Below, piece after piece: positions 4,801 to 18,813 of a stretch of 64,000 nt of DNA. Source of the DNA: Leifsonia sp. EB41 (GTDB lineage: Bacteria > Actinomycetota > Actinomycetes > Actinomycetales > Microbacteriaceae); NCBI RefSeq assembly GCF_041262565.1, contig NZ_JBGCCJ010000001.1, positions 1,054,001 through 1,118,000 of the forward strand. Reading direction: 5' to 3'. The position numbers and the translations under genes are program-made. The notes beneath the pieces are model-generated. The model made no database searches. It was not told the DNA's origin and was given only the letters and a program-made list of their open reading frames with translations. Position 1 is the stretch's first letter, and every line of letters begins with the position of its first letter.

Positions 4801-5544
4801 CTACACGGGGAGGTGGAAGCCGCCGTTCGAGTGGAGGAGCTGGCCGTTGATCCAGCCGCCGGACGGCGACAGCAGGAACGCGACCAGGTCGGCGGTGTCC
4901 TGCGGACGGCCGAGGCGGCCGAGCGCGGTCTCGGCCGCGAGGGTCTCGGCGAGGTCGGGCGTCATCCAGCCGGTGTCGATGGGGCCCGGGTTGATGAGGT
5001 TGGCGGTGATCCCGAGGTGGGCGAGCTCCACGGCGGCCGCTATCACGATGCGGTCGAGCGCGCCCTTGCTGGCGCCGTACGGGAGGTTGTGCGCGGTGTG
5101 GTCGCTGGTGAGGGCGACGATGCGGCCGGAGCCGGGCTCGCCCACGAACTGCTCGGCGAACGCCTTGATCAGCAGCCAGCTCCCCCGGGTGTTGACGGCG
5201 AAGTGCCGGTCGAACGCGGCGACGCTCGTGTCGAGGAGGCCGCTGTCGACGGAGTACGCGTGGCTGCCCACGAGCGCCCGGATCGGTCCCAGCTCGGCGC
5301 GCACCCGGCGGACGAGCTCCTCCGGGCCGCTGCCGGTCGAGAGGTCGGCCACGAAACCGGCCACCCGGGCGCCCGGCGCCCCGGCCTCCGCGGCCAACGC
5401 CTCCGGGAATCCGGGCTCTGGCGTCAGGTCCGCGAACGCGACATCCCAGCCGTCGGCGGCCAGCCGCCGGACGATCCCGGTCCCGATCGCAGCGGGCCGG
5501 CCGACACCGGTGACCAGGACGAGGGGACGACTGTTCTCGGTCAT
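4801..5544 (-). CDS. SDR family oxidoreductase
   Basis: A 247-residue short-chain dehydrogenase/reductase. The N-terminal nucleotide-binding segment is VTGVGRPAAIGTGI, a variant of TGxxxGIG with an insertion. The catalytic residues read as Ser in ALTSDHTAHN, then YGASK (Tyr and Lys). The conserved NNAG after strand 4 is replaced by GSHA, which is unusual. The C-terminal end (GGWINGQLLHSNGGFHLPV) is standard for the family. The substrate is unknown. The gene is single and convergent with hrpA, and the downstream amino-acid transporter operon is on the same strand 36 bp away but reads away from this gene's start. Confidence 0.9.
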   Translation of the reverse strand: MTENSRPLVLVTGVGRPAAIGTGIVRRLAADGWDVAFADLTPEPGFPEALAAEAGAPGARVAGFVADLSTGSGPEELVRRVRAELGPIRALVGSHAYSVDSGLLDTSVAAFDRHFAVNTRGSWLLIKAFAEQFVGEPGSGRIVALTSDHTAHNLPYGASKGALDRIVIAAAVELAHLGITANLINPGPIDTGWMTPDLAETLAAETALGRLGRPQDTADLVAFLLSPSGGWINGQLLHSNGGFHLPV

Positions 5545-5580
5545 CCCCTCATCCTGGCAGAGCGAATACGCAGCGCCCGG

Positions 5581-6384
5581 CTACAGCACCTTCGACAGGA
5601 AGGCCTGCGTGCGCTGGTGCTGCGGGTTGGCCAGCACCTCGCGCGGGTCTCCGGACTCCACCACGACGCCGCCGTCCATGAAGACCAGCTCGTCCGCGAC
5701 CTCGCGGGCGAAGCCCATCTCGTGGGTGACGACGACCATCGTCATGCCGGAGGCCGCCAGGCCCTTCATGACATCCAGCACCTCGCCGACCAGCTCGGGG
5801 TCGAGGGCGGAGGTCGGCTCGTCGAACAGCATCAGCTTCGGGTCCATCGCCAGCGCGCGGGCGATCGCCACACGCTGCTGCTGGCCGCCGGAGAGCTGCG
5901 ACGGGTAGTGGTCGCCCTTGTCGGCGAGGCCGACGCGCACGAGCAGCTCGTTCGCCCGCTCCACGGCCCGAGCCTTCGGCAGGCCCTTGACCCGGATCGG
6001 CGCCTCGATGATGTTCTCGAGAGCCGTCATGTGCGGGAACAGGTTGAAGCGCTGGAACACCATGCCGATCTCGCGGCGCTGGCGGGAGGCCTCCTTGGGC
6101 TTCAGCTCGTAGAGCTTGTCCCCGTGCTGCCGGTAGCCGACCACCTGGCCGTCGACCGACAGCCGGCCGGCGTCCACGCGCTCCAGGTGGTTGATGCAGC
6201 GCAGGAAGGTGGACTTGCCCGAGCCGGACGGCCCGATGATGCAGAGCACCTCACCCGGCCGCACGGACAGCGAGATGGACTTGAGCACCTCGTTCGAGCC
6301 GAAGCTCTTGGAGACGCCCTCGGCCAGGACCATCGGCGTCACGCCGCTCCGCGCGCTGGTGTCCCGTTGCGTCGCGTCGCTCAT
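5581..6384 (-). CDS. Polar amino-acid ABC transporter, ATP-binding protein
   Basis: A 267-residue ABC ATPase of the GlnQ/HisP class. It carries Walker [11 protein letters not shown]-loop region [11 protein letters not shown], signature LSGGQQQR and Walker [15 protein letters not shown] with the following H-loop (VTHEMGFA). The ATG start at 6384 overlaps the permease stop by ATGA, so it is the last gene of a three-gene importer operon (binding protein, permease, ATPase). It powers uptake of an amino acid or related small molecule. A 16-residue N-terminal extension before [11 protein letters not shown] is not part of the fold. Confidence 0.95.
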
Positions 6385-9132: not shown

Positions 9133-10242
9133 ATGTCCCTGTCCCCACGCGCCGTCATCTACTGCGAAGGCCTGTTCGGCGAGCCCGACGGCAAGACCGC
9201 GAACGGTCTGGTGCGCTCGTCGGAGAGCTACGAGATCGTCGCCGTCATCGACAGCACCCGGGCCGGCCAGGACGCCGGCGCGCTGCTCGACGGGGTCGCC
9301 AACGCCGTCCCCGTGCTCGCGGATCTGGCCGAGGTGGTCGGCCACCTCCCCGCGGCGCCGGACGTGCTGATCGTCGGGATGGCTCCGGCCAGCGGCATGC
9401 TCTCCCCCGCCGACCGGCTCGTCCTGCTCGACGGCATCGCCCGCGGCCTCCACCTCGTCAACGGCCTGCACGAGTTCCTCGGCGATGACCCGGAGTTCGC
9501 CGCCGCCGCGCTGATCGCCGGTGTCACCATCACGGATGTGCGCCGCCCGAAGCCCACGAAGGACCTCCGGCTCTTCTCCGGCAGGATCACCGAGGTCACC
9601 TGCCCGCGGATCGCGGTGCTCGGCACCGACGGCGCGATCGGCAAGCGCACCACGACCACCCTCCTGGTGCAGGCGCTCAACGCGCGCGGGATCCGAGCCG
9701 TGATGGTCGGCACGGGCCAGACGGCGCTGATCCAGGGCGCCCGCTATGGCGTGGCGCTGGATGCGACCGTGCCGCAGTTCTGCTCGGGGGAGGTCGAGGG
9801 CCAGGTGCTCGACGCGTTCGAGAACGAGAGCCCGGACGTCATCGTGGTCGAAGGGCAGGGCGCGTTGAGCCATCCCGCCTACCTGACCTCGGCCTACATC
9901 CTGCGCGGCAGCCGACCGGAGGCCGTCATCGTGCAGCACGCCCCCGCGCGTGCGGTCCTGGACGACTACCCCGCGATCGCGATGCCGACGGTCGCGAGCG
10001 AGATCGCCCTGATCGAGGCGTTCGCCGAGACCAGGGTCATCGGCGTGACGGTCAACCACGAGCACCTGTCCGATAGCCAGCTCGGCGAGGCGATCGATGA
10101 GCTCGAACTGGAGCTCGGCATCCCGGCCACCGATCCGCTGACCAGGAGCCTGGACGAACTCGTCGGGATGGTGCTGCTCGCGTTCCCCGCTCTGGCGGCC
10201 ATCGCGGTTCCGCTCGCCGCCCCGCTCGCGGCCGCGAGCTGA
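9133..10242 (+). CDS. DUF1611 / DgcN-like protein
   Basis: A 369-residue member of the DUF1611 family. A Rossmann-like N-terminal domain (about residues 1-140) precedes a P-loop domain with a Walker-A-like GTDGAIGKRT (about 164-173) and DVIVVEGQGALSHPAY. DgcN proteins of this family have been described as N-acetyltransferases working with the epimerase DgcA in D-glutamate breakdown, but no epimerase gene is adjacent here. The C-terminal 20 residues are an Ala/Leu/Pro run (LAAIAVPLAAPLAAAS) that looks like an extension. The ATG at 9133 is fixed by AGAGGAG five bases upstream, which lies inside a hairpin. It converges on the ammonia-lyase homologue. Confidence 0.8.
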   Translation: MSLSPRAVIYCEGLFGEPDGKTANGLVRSSESYEIVAVIDSTRAGQDAGALLDGVANAVPVLADLAEVVGHLPAAPDVLIVGMAPASGMLSPADRLVLLDGIARGLHLVNGLHEFLGDDPEFAAAALIAGVTITDVRRPKPTKDLRLFSGRITEVTCPRIAVLGTDGAIGKRTTTTLLVQALNARGIRAVMVGTGQTALIQGARYGVALDATVPQFCSGEVEGQVLDAFENESPDVIVVEGQGALSHPAYLTSAYILRGSRPEAVIVQHAPARAVLDDYPAIAMPTVASEIALIEAFAETRVIGVTVNHEHLSDSQLGEAIDELELELGIPATDPLTRSLDELVGMVLLAFPALAAIAVPLAAPLAAAS

Positions 10243-10249
10243 CCCGGGC

Positions 10250-11746
10250 TCAGGCGCGTTCGGCGCTGCTCGCGAGGCCGAGCAGACCCTCCGTCGCGCG
10301 CACGAGGTCGTCGGCTGCGCGTCCGTCCAGGCTCGCGGCCAGCGCCGCCGCGAGCCGGCCCGTCCCGGCGCCGGACGGAGCGGCGTCGAGGACGCCGAGC
10401 AGGTCGGCGGCGTGCAGCGCCTCGATCGCGACGACCTCCGCGGTCCGCGCGAGCGAGCGCCGCAGGAGCCGCAGGGCCAGGGGCGCGTAGGTCGCGTGAT
10501 CCTCCACGCCCGACAGCGTGGAGCTGCCGAGCGTCGCCGGGGCCGCGAGCTGGCGCACCTCGGCGACCGCGTCGGCGGCCGCATAGAGGAGGAGGCCGGG
10601 GATGCGGGTGCGGCCCTCCCGGCGAGCGGGGGCGAGCGCCGACGAGAGGGCGGCCGTGCGACGCTCCGAGGCCTCGGCCGCGTGGGCCAGCGCCAAGCGC
10701 AGGTTCTCCAGCGCGAGCGACAGCGGGAGCGCCTGGAAGTTTCCGCCGGAGATCAGGCGGCCGCTCGGGAGGTCGACCACCGGGTTCTCCGAGCGCGCGG
10801 CGAGCTCCGCCTCCAGCTCTGCGCGGAGCCGGGCGATCGACTCACGGAGGGCGCCGTGGAGCTGCGGCGCGGTCCGGAAGGAGAGCGGGTCCTGGACGCT
10901 GACCGTGCGATCCGTCGCCTCCACAGCGCTGCCGGCCAGAGCCACACGGATCGCGTGGGCGGACGCGCGCTGACCCTCGCCTCCGCGCGCGTCGGCCACG
11001 GCCTCGGCGTACGGGCTGAGGTTGCCCGCGGGTCCGTGGGCGGCGACAGCCTCCAGCGACAGGGCGACGACCAGGTCGGCCGCCTCGGCGAGCTGCCGGG
11101 CGGCGACGGCGGCGAGCGAGCCGACGCCCACGCTCAGCGCGTTGGCGCTCAGGGCGGCCAGCGCTTCGTGCGGCGCGAGCTCGATGGGCTGGAGGCCGGC
11201 GTCGGCGAGGGCGGCCTCGGCCGGCACTGCTTCCCCGTCGCGCAGCACAGTGCCGGTGCCGATGACCACGGCGGCGACCTCCGCCAATGCGGTCAGGTCC
11301 GCCGCCCCCACCGAGCCGCGCGAGGGGATGCGCGGCGTCACGCCCGCGTTGAGCAGTGCCGCGTACGCATCGGCGAGCTCGGGCCGAACGCCCGCTCCCC
11401 CGCGCGTGAAGCCGGCGAGCCGCGCGGCGACCACCGCGCGCGCCTCCGTCTCGGTGAGCGGCTCGCCGACGCCGCCGCGGTGGTTCGCGATGGTGCGGCG
11501 CTGGAAGGCGGCGAACTCGTCGGCCTCCACCGCGTCGTCGCGGCCGGCGCCGAGCCGGCGGTTCAGTCCGTAGACCGGCTCGCCCGACTCGATCGCACGG
11601 TCGACCACGGCACGGGAGGCCGCGAGCGTCGCCCGCGCGTCGGCGTCGAGTTCGACCGGTGCGCCCTCGGCGACCGCCACGATGTCGGAGACGGTCGGAG
11701 GCTGCGCGCCGAGCCGGACGGTCCGCATCTCAACAGCGCTGGCCAT
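10250..11746 (-). CDS. Aromatic amino-acid/histidine ammonia-lyase homologue lacking the MIO tripeptide
   Basis: A 498-residue member of the HAL/PAL superfamily. Conserved active-site segments are VYGLNRRLGAG (VYGxN), the dyad region QDPLSFRTAPQLHG, SENPVVDLPSGR, GGNFQA and GVEDHATYAPLA. The segment that normally reads GSVGASGDLAPL, whose Ala-Ser-Gly cyclises to the MIO electrophile, reads GSVGAADLTAL here (residues 144-154). The protein is one residue shorter at this point and lacks Ser and Gly. MIO-dependent deamination is therefore unlikely. The gene starts one base after the stop of the LLM monooxygenase and is the last of a three-gene unit with a cysteine-synthase-like enzyme. It may be a lyase of different chemistry or a non-catalytic homologue. 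Confidence 0.85.
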   Translation of the reverse strand: MASAVEMRTVRLGAQPPTVSDIVAVAEGAPVELDADARATLAASRAVVDRAIESGEPVYGLNRRLGAGRDDAVEADEFAAFQRRTIANHRGGVGEPLTETEARAVVAARLAGFTRGGAGVRPELADAYAALLNAGVTPRIPSRGSVGAADLTALAEVAAVVIGTGTVLRDGEAVPAEAALADAGLQPIELAPHEALAALSANALSVGVGSLAAVAARQLAEAADLVVALSLEAVAAHGPAGNLSPYAEAVADARGGEGQRASAHAIRVALAGSAVEATDRTVSVQDPLSFRTAPQLHGALRESIARLRAELEAELAARSENPVVDLPSGRLISGGNFQALPLSLALENLRLALAHAAEASERRTAALSSALAPARREGRTRIPGLLLYAAADAVAEVRQLAAPATLGSSTLSGVEDHATYAPLALRLLRRSLARTAEVVAIEALHAADLLGVLDAAPSGAGTGRLAAALAASLDGRAADDLVRATEGLLGLASSAERA

Positions 11747-11747
11747 C

Positions 11748-13049
11748 TCAGAAATCGGCCAGGTTCTGCCGCAGGCCCGCGTCGCCGAGCTCGGTGCGCA
11801 GCAGGCCGCGCCGCCGCAGGGCGGGCACCAGCGGGTCGAGCGTGCGGTGCACGTTGGCCGGGTGTACCTGGCCGGTGAAGAGGAACCCGTCTCCGCCGAC
11901 GGCCTCCCCCAGCTCGCCCAGGTGGTCGGCCACCTCGTCGGCCGTGCCGATGATCGCCAGGCCGTCCTTCTTCGCACGGGTCTGCAGGATCTCGCGGAGG
12001 GTGGAGCCCGCCGGAGCCGACGAGACGAAGTTGTCGAGGGTGCCGCGGTTGCTGTTGGTGGTGACGTCCGGCAGCGGGGCGTCGAGGTCGAAGGTCTTGA
12101 AGTCGACGCCGGTCAGGTAGCTGATCGACTGGAGCTGCTCGTCGATCGCGGCCTGCGTCAGCTCGGCGCGCGCGGCGCGGACGCTGGCGGTCTCCTCGGC
12201 GTTCGCAGTCAGGATCGGCTGCACGACGAACAGCACCTTCACCGCGTCGGCCGGGCGGCCGTGCTGCTCGGCGACCTCCCGGATGCTGTCGCGGTACTCC
12301 CGCATCCGCTCGGCGGTGGAGGCCAGCGCCAGCACCACGTCCGAGTTCTTGCCGGCGAAGTCGCGGCCGCGGCCGGACGCTCCCGCCTGCACCATGACCG
12401 GGTCCTCCGCCGCGGGTGCGGTGTTGAGCGGCCCGCGGACGCGGAAGAAGCGGCCCTCGTGGTCGATGGTGTGGACCTTGCGGAAGTCGGCGAAGACGCC
12501 GCCCGCGACGTCCTCGACGATCGCGTCAGGCTCCCAGCTCCGCCAGAGCTTGCGGACGACCTCCACCCACTCGTCGGCGCGGTCGTAGCGGAGGTCGTGC
12601 TCCACCTGCTTGTCGAGGCCGTAGTTCTGGGCCGCCAGGTCGGAGCCGCTGGTCACCACGTTGAAGCCGAGCCGGCCGCCCGCGAAGTGCTGGAGGGTGC
12701 TCAGCAGGCGCGCGGCGGTGAACGGCTCGTAGAAGCTCGCGCTCAGCGTGGGCACGATGCCGAGCCGGGAGGTCGCCCCGAGCAGGTACGGCACGAGCGG
12801 CAGCGGGTCGTGCTTCGGGACGAAGCGCGCGGCAGCGAGGTTCACTTCGGCGGAGCCGCCGTAGGTGTCGGGCACGGCCACGCCGTCCTCGATGATGAAG
12901 AGGTCGAAGCCGGCGCCCTCGAAGGCGCGCGCGGCATCCTGGTAGACCGGCGGCTGCTTCCAGTCGTAACCGACGCCGTAACTCGGGTCGCCCCAGCCCT
13001 GGACGCCGAAGCCCGCGCCGAGGAACCAGCCGAAGTGGAGGAGTGCCAT
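11748..13049 (-). CDS. LLM class flavin-dependent monooxygenase (NtaA/SnaA/DszA type)
   Basis: A 433-residue FMN-dependent monooxygenase. The luciferase-like core includes LLGATSRLGIVPTLSASFY, RLGFNVVTSGSDLAAQNYG, RYDRADEWVEVVRKLWRSWE and PVMVQAGASGRGRDFAGKN, which mark the nitrilotriacetate/dibenzothiophene-sulfone subgroup. These enzymes use FMNH2 from a partner reductase to oxidise C-N or C-S bonds. No reductase gene is visible nearby. It lies 44 bp after the cysteine-synthase-like gene and 1 bp before the lyase homologue. In Bacillus, an LLM enzyme, a GNAT and an amino-acid ABC importer together degrade S-succinocysteine, and a similar set surrounds this gene. The substrate is inferred only by that analogy. 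Confidence 0.92.
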   Translation of the reverse strand: MALLHFGWFLGAGFGVQGWGDPSYGVGYDWKQPPVYQDAARAFEGAGFDLFIIEDGVAVPDTYGGSAEVNLAAARFVPKHDPLPLVPYLLGATSRLGIVPTLSASFYEPFTAARLLSTLQHFAGGRLGFNVVTSGSDLAAQNYGLDKQVEHDLRYDRADEWVEVVRKLWRSWEPDAIVEDVAGGVFADFRKVHTIDHEGRFFRVRGPLNTAPAAEDPVMVQAGASGRGRDFAGKNSDVVLALASTAERMREYRDSIREVAEQHGRPADAVKVLFVVQPILTANAEETASVRAARAELTQAAIDEQLQSISYLTGVDFKTFDLDAPLPDVTTNSNRGTLDNFVSSAPAGSTLREILQTRAKKDGLAIIGTADEVADHLGELGEAVGGDGFLFTGQVHPANVHRTLDPLVPALRRRGLLRTELGDAGLRQNLADF

Positions 13050-13093
13050 GCGTTCCTTGCTGTGAGTAGTGCTGTCTGGTGGTCAGTGCTGTG

Positions 13094-14116
13094 TCAGTCG
13101 ACGCCGACGCCCGCGGCGCTCAGCCAGTCCGCGTCGTACGCCTTGGTCAGGTAGTTGGTGCCGCCGTCCGGGGCGATGGCCACGATGACCGACCCGGGCC
13201 GCGCCTCCCGCGCCACCCGCAGGGCCGCCGCGACGGCGAGCGCCGACGACGGTCCGAGCAGCAGCGCCTCCTCGGCGGCGAGCCGGCGGAGCGTGCGGTA
13301 GACCACCCCATCCTCGACCGTGTGCACTTCGTCCACCACCCCCGGGTCGAAGGTCTGCGGCCAGAACTCGCGCGGCCACGCGGTTCCGACGCCGTCGACC
13401 AGGATGCGGCCGGCCGCTCCCCCGTCGTAGGTCGAGCCCGCCGGGTTGGCGCCGTGCACCTCGACGGCGCCGCCGCTGACCTCCTTGAGGTAGCGGCCGG
13501 TGCCGCTCACGGTGCCGCCGGTGCCGATGGCGGCCACGAAGTGCGTGACCCGGCCCGCGGTCTGCCGCCAGATCTCCGGCCCGGTGCCGCGGTAGTGCGC
13601 CTCGGGGTTGGCGGTGTTCGCGAACTGGGCCGGACGCCAGGCGCCGGGGGTCTCGGCGGCGATCCGGTCGGCGACCGCGCGTGGGTTGGCCGGGTCGTCG
13701 GGGCCGGCCTCCCAGTCGGCCTCCAGCAGGCGGGCGCCGTAGGCCGCGAGGACCTTACGCTTCTCGTCCGAGATGTCGGAAGCGTGGACGATGACGACGG
13801 GATGGCCGGTGAGCCGGCCGATCAGTGCCAGGCCGATCCCGGTGTTGCCGCTGGTCGCCTCCACGATCGTGCCGCCCGGGGCGAGCACGCCGGCCGCCTC
13901 CGCGGTGCGGATCATGTTGAGCGCGATGCGGTCCTTGGAGGAGCCGCCGGGGTTGCGGCCCTCCAGCTTGACCAGGACCCGCACGTCGAGCCCGGACGGC
14001 AGCGCGTGCAGCTCGACGATCGGGGTGTTGCCGATGAGCGCTGCCGCCGAGTCGCACACCTCGCCCAGCGGGAGGTTCCCGGGGGCGGAGGAGGGGATCA
14101 GATCGAGCGCGGTCAT
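13094..14116 (-). CDS. PLP-dependent cysteine synthase family protein
   Basis: A 340-residue fold-type II PLP enzyme related to O-acetylserine sulfhydrylase and cystathionine beta-synthase. The PLP lysine is in GRNPGGSSKDRIALNM, the substrate loop is EATSGNTGIGLAL, and the phosphate cup is AIGTGGTVSGTGRYL. The end IAPDGGTNYLTKAYDADW matches the CBS-like subgroup. The first strand motif IGNTPIVEL is present. It would form or use cysteine or a related thio-amino acid by beta-replacement. As first gene of the unit with the LLM monooxygenase and lyase homologue, it supports a sulfur amino-acid theme. The ATG at 14116 is the only sensible start. Confidence 0.92.
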   Translation of the reverse strand: MTALDLIPSSAPGNLPLGEVCDSAAALIGNTPIVELHALPSGLDVRVLVKLEGRNPGGSSKDRIALNMIRTAEAAGVLAPGGTIVEATSGNTGIGLALIGRLTGHPVVIVHASDISDEKRKVLAAYGARLLEADWEAGPDDPANPRAVADRIAAETPGAWRPAQFANTANPEAHYRGTGPEIWRQTAGRVTHFVAAIGTGGTVSGTGRYLKEVSGGAVEVHGANPAGSTYDGGAAGRILVDGVGTAWPREFWPQTFDPGVVDEVHTVEDGVVYRTLRRLAAEEALLLGPSSALAVAAALRVAREARPGSVIVAIAPDGGTNYLTKAYDADWLSAAGVGVD

Positions 14117-16070: not shown

Positions 16071-16148
16071 TTACTGGCAGGACTCGCACTGCAGGTCGTC
16101 CATCGGGTCGACCGGCACGTAGTACTCCTCGATCTTGGTGCTGTTCAT
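16071..16148 (-). CDS. 25-residue ORF encoding the redox-active NrdA C-terminal tail
   Basis: A 26-codon ORF between nrdA and nrdB. Its ATG (16148-16146) overlaps the nrdA stop codon as TAATG, and it ends DPMDDLQCESCQ before TAA. A Cys pair at the extreme C-terminus is the part of class I NrdA proteins that re-reduces the active-site disulfide (Cys754/Cys759 in E. coli). The 828-residue NrdA encoded just upstream has no cysteine after residue 456, so this peptide appears to be its missing tail. No slippery heptamer is present at the junction, and the -1 frame has a TGA (16158-16156) a few bases upstream. Termination-reinitiation is more likely than frameshifting. A one-base assembly error is the alternative. 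Confidence 0.7.
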   Translation of the reverse strand: MNSTKIEEYYVPVDPMDDLQCESCQ

Positions 16149-18634
16149 TACTTCTCACCGCCAGCCGGGGTGTTCGAGGTCAGGCCACCGAAGCCGAAGC
16201 CGCGGCGGGCGGGGGCGGCCGCCGGAGCGGTCTCGGTGACGGCGGGGGCGGCCGGAGCGCCGGCACCCACCGTGGCGAAGCCGGTGCGGGCGCCCGAGAT
16301 CTCCTCGGCCTTGTTGACCTTGACGGTCGACTGCTCGGCCTGGTGACGCGGCTTCATGTGCAGGTAGTAGGTCGTCTTGACGCCCTTCTCCCACGCGGCG
16401 TAGTAGATGTCCATCATGTCGCCGAGGTCGCGCGTCTCCAGGTACATGTTGCGGCTGATCGCCTGGTCGATCCACTTCTGGGCGCGGGCGGCCACCTCGA
16501 TGAAGGCGTACGGCGAGAGCTGGAAGCTGGTCTTGAACGTGGCCTTGACCTCGTCCGGGATCGCCGCGATGCCCTGGATGTCGCCCTGCGAGCGCAGGAT
16601 CGCCTCGCGGACGTCCTGCCAGATGCCGCGCTCCTGCAGCGTCTCGACCAGGTTGCGGTTGACCTCCAGGAACTTGCCCGACGAGGTCGACCGGCTGAAG
16701 ATCTGCGAGAACTGCGGGTCGAAGCCCGGCGTGGTGCCGGCGACGAGGCCGATGGAGGCCGTCGGCGCGATGGCCATCAGGGTCGCGTTGCGCATGCCGC
16801 CCTTGACCTTCTCGCGCAGGCGGTCCCAGTCGAGGCGGATGGTGCGGTCGACCGTGATCGGGAGGCCCCGGTCGGCCTCCGTCAGCGCGATCGAGTCGAA
16901 GGGCACCAGGCCCTGCGACCAGCGCGAGCCCTCGAAGTTCGGGTACGCGCCGCGCTCCTGGGCCAGGTCGGCGCTCTCGTCGATCGCCGCGTACGAGACG
17001 TGCTCCATGATCTCGTCGATCAGGGCGTACGCCTCCTCGCTCTCGTAGCTGAAGCCGAGGCGCTCGACGATGTCGGTGAAGCCCATCACACCGAGGCCGA
17101 TCGCGCGGTTCTGCTGGTTGGAGAAGTCCGCCTCGTCCACGCTCGACACCGTGATGTCGATCAGGTTGTCGAGCTGGCGGACGGCCTGGCGGGCGCTCGC
17201 CTCGATGCGCTCCCAGTCCATCTTGCCGTCGACGAGGTGGCGCGACAGGTTGATGGAGGCCAGGTTGCAGACCGACACGTTGTCGCGGTCCTGCGGCAGC
17301 GTGATCTCGGTGCAGAGGTTGGAGAGGTGGATCGTGCCCGTGTTGTTGTTCAGGGCGCGGTTGTTGATGGTGTCCTTCCAGGTCAGCCACGGGTGGCTGG
17401 TGGTCTGCAGGCTCATCAGGATGTCCTTGAACTGCGAGCGCGCGCTGATCTTCTTGAACATGCGCAGTTCGCCGGACTCGGCCATGGCGACGTACTCGGC
17501 GTAGCGCTCGGAGAACGCCTTGCCGTACAGCTCGTTGAGGTCGGCGACCTCCAGCGGGTCGAAGAGGTACCAGTCCTCGTCGTTCTGGACGCGCTTCATG
17601 AACTCGTCGCTGATCCACACCGCGGTGTTGGCGGTGCGGGTGCGGCGGTACGGGTCGCCGGAGTTCTGGCGGAGGTCGAGGAACTCCGGGAAGTCCATGT
17701 GCCAGTTCTCCATGTAGAAGCACAGGGCGCCGAACTTCTTGCCGCCGCGGCTCACCGCGCGCAGCACCGAGTCGATCGTGTGCATGAACGGGATCGGGCC
17801 CGTGGAGGTGGTGTTGTTGGAGCGGATGGGCGAGCCCTGCGCGCGCAGCTTGGTGACCGCGAGGCCGATGCCGCCGGTGCCCTTGGTGAGCCACATGACG
17901 TCGCGCACCGACTTGGCGATGTGCTCGATGTCGTCCTGCATCTCCATGACGAAGCAGTTGGAGAGCTGCGGGTACGCGGTGCCCGCGTTGACGAGCGTGG
18001 AGCCCGCGGCCAAGTACTCCAGGTTGGACATCTTGTCGTAGAACGCGAGGGCGTGCGCGGTCGGGTCGGCCTCGTTGAGGGAGAGACCCATCGCGATGCG
18101 CATCCAGAAGTACTGCGGCACCTCGAGGGAGTCGCCGTTGCGCGCCTTGATGCCGTAGCGGTTGTTGAGGGTGACGACGCCGATGTACTTGAGCAGCTCG
18201 TCGCGCGACGGGTCGAGGAAGCCCGCGAGGCGGTCGAGGTCGAAGAGGGTCGTGAAACGCGAGTCGAGGAGGGTCTCGGCGACGCCCCGCTCGATGTAGC
18301 CGCGGAAGTGGGAGGTGTGCAGCTCGGTGAGCTCGTCGAGGGTCTCGTAGTCGCCGAGGACGCGCTTGTAGATCGTCTTGAGGAGGAGGCGCGCGGCGAC
18401 GGTGTCGAACGCCGGGTCGTCCTTGACGTTCTGGAGGGCGACCTGGATGACTGCCTCGTCGAGCTGCTGGGTGGTGATCCCGTCGAAGAGGGTCAGCTCC
18501 AGCTCGCTCGCGATCTGGGTCACCCAGGTGATGTTCTCGTCCAGACCGGCGGCGGCGTGCTCGATGGCCAGGTTGATCTTGTTGGCGTCGTACGGCTCGC
18601 GCTCGCCGTTCCGCTTCACAACAGTGATAGCCAC
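16148..18634 (-). CDS. nrdA: Ribonucleoside-diphosphate reductase subunit alpha (R1)
   Basis: An 828-residue catalytic subunit. An N-terminal ATP-cone (about residues 1-95, VKRNGEREPYDANKI) gives allosteric activity control. The active site is complete: Cys227 (SNCF), Asn439/Cys441/Glu443 (SNLCTEI), Cys456, and the radical-path tyrosines 756-757 (KTTYYLHMK). The protein then runs into an Ala/Pro/Gly-rich linker ending NTPAGGEK with no cysteine. The usual redox tail is in a separate overlapping ORF at 16071-16148. The GTG start is preceded by GGGAGAG. It is the first gene of the nrdA-tail-nrdB-sulfurtransferase unit, and its promoter region carries tandem NrdR boxes. It reduces ribonucleotides to deoxyribonucleotides. 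Confidence 0.96.
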   Translation of the reverse strand: MAITVVKRNGEREPYDANKINLAIEHAAAGLDENITWVTQIASELELTLFDGITTQQLDEAVIQVALQNVKDDPAFDTVAARLLLKTIYKRVLGDYETLDELTELHTSHFRGYIERGVAETLLDSRFTTLFDLDRLAGFLDPSRDELLKYIGVVTLNNRYGIKARNGDSLEVPQYFWMRIAMGLSLNEADPTAHALAFYDKMSNLEYLAAGSTLVNAGTAYPQLSNCFVMEMQDDIEHIAKSVRDVMWLTKGTGGIGLAVTKLRAQGSPIRSNNTTSTGPIPFMHTIDSVLRAVSRGGKKFGALCFYMENWHMDFPEFLDLRQNSGDPYRRTRTANTAVWISDEFMKRVQNDEDWYLFDPLEVADLNELYGKAFSERYAEYVAMAESGELRMFKKISARSQFKDILMSLQTTSHPWLTWKDTINNRALNNNTGTIHLSNLCTEITLPQDRDNVSVCNLASINLSRHLVDGKMDWERIEASARQAVRQLDNLIDITVSSVDEADFSNQQNRAIGLGVMGFTDIVERLGFSYESEEAYALIDEIMEHVSYAAIDESADLAQERGAYPNFEGSRWSQGLVPFDSIALTEADRGLPITVDRTIRLDWDRLREKVKGGMRNATLMAIAPTASIGLVAGTTPGFDPQFSQIFSRSTSSGKFLEVNRNLVETLQERGIWQDVREAILRSQGDIQGIAAIPDEVKATFKTSFQLSPYAFIEVAARAQKWIDQAISRNMYLETRDLGDMMDIYYAAWEKGVKTTYYLHMKPRHQAEQSTVKVNKAEEISGARTGFATVGAGAPAAPAVTETAPAAAPARRGFGFGGLTSNTPAGGEK

Positions 18635-18765: not shown

Positions 18766-18813
18766 CCACTATATAGCCGGGTGCCGACATTTCCACGCCC
18801 CCATATCTAGTGG
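18766..18813 (-). promoter_or_regulatory. Tandem NrdR boxes upstream of nrdA
   Basis: Two 16-bp sites resemble the NrdR consensus ACACTATATATAGTGT. Box 1 at 18766-18781 contains CACTATATA with a weaker right half. Box 2 at 18798-18813 contains ATATCTAGTG. Their starts are 32 bp apart, about three helical turns, as known for NrdR pairs. They sit about 130-180 bp before the nrdA start. NrdR is the (d)ATP-sensing repressor of ribonucleotide reductase genes. The region is AT-rich for this genome. Confidence 0.75.

Follow-up and report, generated by a model that had tools for sequence, protein, structure and literature searches.

Class I ribonucleotide reductases of Microbacteriaceae with a separately encoded redox tail: comparative evidence for a probable free peptide

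In class I ribonucleotide reductases (RNRs), the redox tail of the large subunit, NrdA, is normally tethered to the catalytic chain. The tail has been disordered in RNR structures (PMC5819950), and its contacts have thus been hard to study. We describe an nrdA gene whose redox tail is encoded by a separate, 25-residue open reading frame (ORF). The gene lies in a 64,000-nucleotide stretch of DNA (hereafter, the window) from Leifsonia sp. EB41, a member of the Microbacteriaceae (contig NZ_JBGCCJ010000001.1, positions 1,054,001 to 1,118,000).

The closest described system is the class II RNR of Pseudomonas aeruginosa, where NrdJa and NrdJb share an operon, neither chain is dispensable in vivo, and dithiol exchange proceeds through NrdJb (PMC4520616). 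There, as here, the catalytic chain lacks redox cysteines and is followed in its operon by a second chain, which in the present system would likewise supply dithiol exchange. In the window, too, the redox chain is encoded apart and corresponds by homology to the C-terminus that relatives keep fused. The systems also differ, since NrdJ is a class II (B12) enzyme and NrdJb, at 229 residues (PMC4520616), contains folded domains (PMC9669993), whereas the present system combines a class I NrdA and NrdB with a peptide of about 20–40 residues, an extra stand-alone gene preceded by NrdR-box-like sites, and copies on mobile elements. According to a 2015 paper, the proteobacterial NrdJ split is the sole one in a non-viral organism (PMC4520616), and passages of a 2022 survey of RNR extensions apply the term split to class II alone (PMC9669993). 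A second precedent is phage Aeh1, whose class I nrdA is split into two chains that still form an active enzyme (PMC2988022). In that single phage, a homing endonuclease is inserted in a functionally critical region; here, by contrast, the cut falls in a linker, is family-wide, and detaches the redox tail alone. In light of both precedents, the original prediction went too far in regarding a separate redox tail as wholly new. The arrangement is best regarded as a new, extreme form of split RNR, and its regulated and mobile free peptide may prove categorically new. Searches of the open-licence full text in PubMed Central brought up no description of a class I tail detached as a peptide.

On the comparative evidence set out below, it is highly probable that the redox tail is a diffusible peptide that acts on NrdA in trans, within a three-piece class I (Ic-like) RNR. 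The window NrdA matches NCBIfam NF005101 (E = 0) and carries the class I large-subunit set of Pfam domains, namely an ATP cone (PF03477), an all-alpha domain (PF00317), and a barrel (PF02867). It contains four cysteines, the last at residue 456 of 828, and close relatives have theirs at 227, 305, 441, and 456. An alignment of the cysteine region to 5im3 was made; C227, C441 (in NLCTEI), and C456 are all present, and we take these to serve as the active-site pair and the radical cysteine, as in NrdA of E. coli. The C-terminal redox cysteine pair that is a hallmark of class I is absent from the NrdA chain, which ends in a linker (...ARRGFGFGGLTSNTPAGGEK), and sits instead on the separate ORF, whose product terminates in QCESCQ. 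At the junction, TAATG, the NrdA stop and the tail's ATG have one base in common. The position of the last cysteine, the linker, the QCESCQ end, and the overlap had been read correctly in the original prediction, as had the coordinates and the NrdA length of 828 residues; inspection of the window junction by eye likewise revealed no slippery heptamer.

Judged by comparison of related loci, the split is a trait of the family, in those members that have this NrdA. In the genus, 28 genomes were sampled (G000–G027), and the tail ORF is intact in all of them: 26 have it in the same shifted frame, one (G007, locus L027) has it in the NrdA frame behind TAA-ATG, and one (G006, L028) has it beside a frame-disturbed NrdA linker. 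A further 82 family junctions (L029, L030, and L035–L114) yielded 78 separate tails, four junctions with no tail, and none with a fused tail. Together with the junction of G225, which was added later, a separate tail ORF is found at 106 of 111 junctions (106 of 110 before that addition), five have no tail, and none are fused. Comparing this junction in related genomes was a check that had been proposed at the outset, and continuous ORFs turned up only in other families, which argues for a real split and not an error. Relative to NrdA, the 106 tails lie in frame 2 in 90 cases, in frame 0 in 10, and in frame 1 in 6. When the tail start was taken as the first ATG, GTG, or TTG from 4 nucleotides (nt) ahead of the NrdA stop, 104 junctions could be scored, and the start overlapped the stop in 83 of them (offset −1 in 49 and +2 in 34); the others begin up to 60 nt past the stop.

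All 106 tails have in common the end motif P.DPM(D/E)...C..CQ-stop, although the invariance of these positions is partly by construction because the tail finder demanded the motif. A looser finder, which needed only a C..C no more than two residues from a stop, returned the same 106 of 110 loci. In pairwise comparison of the 106 tails, divergence per site in the last 15 codons is 0.09 at first, 0.066 at second, and 0.32 at third codon positions, and the 45 nt on the 3′ side of the tail stop diverge by 0.71–0.73 per site. By this measure, the tail ORF is under strong purifying selection. A chance ORF is ruled out by the codon-position pattern, together with reversed-pattern controls of 0. In two genomes, G006 (L028) and G036 (L030), the NrdA frame is disturbed within Pro- or Gly-rich linker runs next to an intact tail ORF, and this disturbance is either real or an assembly error.

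Signals for translation initiation are also associated with the junction. In every one of the 27 genus members that could be scored, the word GGTGA occurs at most 18 nt on the 5′ side of the tail start, although GGT is a minority glycine codon in the window nrdA (6 of 56). Across the family, a five-base Shine–Dalgarno word is present at 64 of 104 junctions, compared with 9% of random 18-mers drawn from nrdA loci. Stop–start coupled translation is likely, from sequence, where the ORFs overlap. This bears on the original suggestion of a tail made by reinitiation and acting in trans: comparative genomics lends strong support to action in trans, and coupling is likely at the 83 overlapping junctions, leaving the remaining junctions, which do not overlap, outside that part of the suggestion.

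Outside the family, the same sequence is found on the NrdA chain. From five other families of the same order, with 69–75% identical NrdA, 20 genes were fetched, 14 of which could be read to the end, with five more still open in frame where the read stopped. In all 14, the tail is fused, ending in ...CPxDPxxxLxC(E/D)(S/A)CQ on the NrdA chain; the remaining gene, L133, ends early, in another frame. Two more distant relatives (39–41% identity) have a CEACQ end that is likewise fused. These ordinary class I enzymes, such as those of Demequina and Actinotalea, are closely related in both NrdA and tail sequence and would be expected to perform the same step, and they differ in that the tail is covalently attached. 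We infer that fusion is the ancestral state. A stricter tail pattern, run on 296 genomes of the class, most of which have not been shown to possess this NrdA, hit only the genus member G000. In a metagenome-assembled genome labelled Ktedonobacteraceae (JAICIM010000039.1, approximately 5496–5900; L343), NrdA ends in ...AGFGFANISE with no C-terminal cysteine and is followed by a separate, longer ORF ending in ACPIDPMERLLCESCQ and then by nrdB, such that a split may also exist outside the Actinomycetota.

The distribution of the tail follows that of NrdA closely. In a sample of 398 family genomes, searched with a 33-base tail pattern and an NrdA cut-off of E ≤ 1e-150, the tail pattern was found in 178, with a reversed-pattern control of 0 in every genome. 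Across the analyses reported here, genomes cited by name and those cited by G number overlap in part, and counts from these two sets are not independent. NrdA and tail occur together in 170 genomes, NrdA alone in none, the tail alone in eight, and neither in 220; within genus g89, for example, G180, G232, and G278 lack both. Moreover, two or more tail copies are present in 153 of the 178 tail-bearing genomes (152 of the 170 with NrdA), and G000 has four. Further copies are typically stand-alone genes, such as that encoding MDYENDTVGGYAVPVDPMDLLQCDSCQ, and murB (or ppx) lies within the fetched sequence of 31 of 37 stand-alone loci, or 30 of 36 genes, as two of the loci represent one gene. In five genomes (G103, G172, and G225 (genus g75), G352, and G186), nrdA and nrdB have no tail between them; each possesses a remote stand-alone copy and would have to use it in trans. 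Two of the copies in G000 (L392 7046–8061, near 2798025, and L394 7231–8215, near 3211179) adjoin repressor-like and short excisionase-like ORFs, as seen by eye, and one of the two also adjoins an integrase-like ORF; these neighbors suggest integrative elements.

Many stand-alone genes are preceded by putative sites for the regulator NrdR. Scoring covered the 36 stand-alone copies that resemble the chromosomal type, and used what we take to be the NrdR-box consensus. A pair of NrdR-box-like sites was found on the 5′ side of 35 of the 36, with scores of 20–26 out of 32, and in each of these 35 genes, none of 50 shuffles reached the observed pair score; the exception, L316, scored 16. The two sites lie 32–33 bp apart, start to start (a spacer of 16–17 bp), in 34 of the 35 pairs and 30 bp apart (a spacer of 14 bp) in L120. 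NrdR sites consist of two 16-bp boxes. The optimum reported for the spacer is 15–17 bp (PMC12051234), a range that takes in those 34 pairs. The window nrdA has a pair of its own, with a score of 21, the best of 200 shuffles reaching 18. As background, 63 of 3000 random 270-nt windows from the same loci attained a score of 20, some of them lying over the sites themselves. Pairs were absent from all 26 operon tails and from the three isolate phages scanned, and occurred at 1 of 79 viral copies. A further 16 cellular copies were scanned separately, one of which lay too near a contig end, and none of the other 15 had a pair; among these 15, L332 is a chance match with TGG in place of the stop.

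Tails are also carried by mobile elements. A tblastn search with a 27-residue tail detected Pontimonas phage phiPsal1, Clavibacter phages CMP1 and CN1A, and Pseudanabaena phage Pan2, with E-values of 0.009 to 3 that are weak because the query is so short. In all four isolates, the match is a short ORF ending in C..CQ-stop, and it is annotated only in Pan2. The host on record for Pan2 is cyanobacterial, and its free tail, MDDFDTIDGFACPNDPADLVSCESCQ (L147 4993–5076), points either to a wider host range of such tails or to a doubtful host label. A pattern scan of IMG/VR recovered at least 120 viral stretches with a tail, and none with the reversed pattern. In all 80 viral loci examined, the motif ends at a stop codon, and the open frame does not exceed 60 residues in 63 loci or 120 residues in 78; NrdA or NrdB was present within the fetched stretch in 2 of the 80. 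Among 31 whole viral records, picked mainly for length and comprising 27 of the 80 loci and the four isolates, NrdA was found in one and was lacking in 30; IMG/VR contigs may be fragments, and the genomes of the four isolates were deposited as complete. One viral contig, L221 (IMGVR_UViG_3300010885_033832, 9780–13500), encodes a tail upstream of nrdA, and this nrdA has an intein-like insert near the radical-cysteine position and an end, ...APRKGFGFKSAN, with no C-terminal cysteine. Finally, 19 plasmid records carry a tail (E-values of 5e-5 to 7e-2), 15 from Clavibacter, three from Leifsonia, and one from Gryllotalpicola (plasmid NZ_CP032625.1 of Gryllotalpicola protaetiae). On plasmid NZ_CP065038.1 (L401 4462–4563), a 33-residue tail, WP_223361114.1, is annotated as “ribonucleotide-diphosphate reductase subunit beta”, apparently a misnomer, and such a peptide is therefore already present in public annotation. 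Searches of Pfam, PHROGs, and NCBIfam gave no match for the tail peptides tested.

A separate tail gene, together with spare copies under NrdR-box-like sites and on phages and plasmids, makes it probable that the tail is a free peptide. The enzyme would thus consist of NrdA, NrdB, and a redox-tail peptide of about 20–40 residues. The operon tail would be translated from the Shine–Dalgarno-like GGTGA inside the nrdA end, probably in a manner coupled to termination, and the second, stand-alone gene, which most of the family carries, commonly close to murB and behind NrdR-box-like sites, would furnish extra tail when NrdR is relieved. The peptide's C-terminal CxxCQ would enter the NrdA active site and reduce the disulfide formed at each turnover, presumably that between C227 and C456, after which a thioredoxin-type reductant would recharge the peptide. 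From gene content and conservation, we infer that peptide synthesis, binding, and electron transfer occur in trans. Docking could take place at the (R/K)GFG end that is conserved in NrdA, but similar repeats in the linkers of the fused outgroup make this idea only a lead. A broader proposal, to which we would give even chances, is that the tail is a diffusible and mobile enzyme part made from an NrdR-controlled gene, which RNR-less phages, plasmids, and integrative elements plug into the host NrdA, raising the supply of deoxynucleoside triphosphates (dNTPs); its mobile spread may, in turn, have let the NrdA of the family lose its own tail.

Several points weigh against a free tail acting in trans. 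A free 25-residue peptide would need good affinity or a high concentration, and the NrdR boxes are putative sites identified by sequence scoring. The NrdA genes of G006 and G036 run out of frame near their ends, possibly through assembly error. Moreover, eight genomes (G162, G189, G220, G297, G337, G339, G370, and G384) have the tail and no NrdA at 1e-150, seven of them being at most 94% complete and G189 being 99% complete. In the G189 copy (G189:C18:26839-26871; L144), with the motif CPVDSMDELNCDSCQ, just 16 codons are open and none of those ahead of the motif is a start codon; this copy may therefore be decayed or a chance match.

The alternative that fares best, improbable as it appears, is that the peptide regulates RNR as an inhibitor, thioredoxin decoy, or assembly factor, with NrdA being reduced directly. 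Mobile elements that carry the tail but lack NrdA (30 of 31 viral records) could be engaged in interference no less than in supply. However, the peptide is homologous to the fused tail of the outgroup and has kept the CxxCQ-stop end, the window NrdA has no cysteine past 456, and a pure regulator would not explain the presence of the motif in all 170 genomes with NrdA.

A second alternative, raised in the original prediction and very unlikely on the present data, is that recoding by −1 frameshifting, stop readthrough, or a ribosome hop joins the tail to NrdA, yielding a normal full-length protein. The predominance of one frame (90 of 106 junctions) and of stop/start overlap (83 of 104) would suit such a route, yet at ten junctions the tail shares the NrdA frame but lies behind a stop, six tails occupy the third frame, four of them beside an NrdA that is not disturbed (the disturbed ones being L028 and L030), and no slip site was seen by eye. 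Furthermore, five genomes have no junction tail, stand-alone genes exist, and the tail of viral contig L221 lies upstream of nrdA. With tails in every frame, as far as 60 nt beyond the stop, ahead of nrdA in L221, or at remote loci only, recoding is rejected as the general mechanism; frameshifting and readthrough in particular are ruled out as general routes by the use of all frames, the remote copies, and the tail-less junctions. Lastly, an error in sequencing or assembly, or decay of a formerly fused tail to a remnant, has next to no likelihood, for although G006 and G036 are frame-disturbed in the linker, a separate tail ORF at 106 of 110 junctions rules out sequencing error, and that ORF spans many genera with change mostly at third codon positions.

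If the tail does act as a free peptide, the enzyme would permit titration of tail affinity, kinetics, and docking site. There would also be an overlooked family of genes for 20–40-residue products in Microbacteriaceae, phages, and plasmids, a new route by which phages could assist or disturb dNTP synthesis in the host, and a case in nature of an enzyme part turned into a mobile gene. The features of the window locus are collected in Table 1.

Table 1. Positions of the RNR genes and associated sites in the window.
Feature	Position	Strand	Basis
nrdA, RNR large subunit, 828 aa, GTG start	16148..18634	minus	Pfam/NCBIfam matches
Putative detached redox-tail ORF, 25 aa, MNSTKIEEYYVPVDPMDDLQCESCQ	16071..16148	minus	ORF calls and family conservation
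Shine–Dalgarno-like GGTGA inside the nrdA 3′ end, 6 nt ahead of the tail start	16155..16159	minus	sequence
nrdB, RNR small subunit, 329 aa	15048..16037	minus	domain match and PDB relatives
NrdR-box-like site 1, 5′ of nrdA, CCACTAGATATGGGGG	18798..18813	minus	pair score
NrdR-box-like site 2, 5′ of nrdA, CCCGGCTATATAGTGG, 32 bp from site 1	18766..18781	minus	pair score

A tblastn-type search of the one-contig source genome gave no second NrdA match, and NrdD was not found there; NrdR is encoded. The nearest PDB sequences to the window NrdB are the R2 proteins of 1syy and 4d8f, the former of which we take to be the class Ic R2 of Chlamydia trachomatis. We know of no detached tail in the RNR of that organism, and the likeness lies in the small subunit: a phenylalanine of the window NrdB aligns with the 1syy phenylalanine at what we take to be the usual place of the radical tyrosine, as expected for class Ic.

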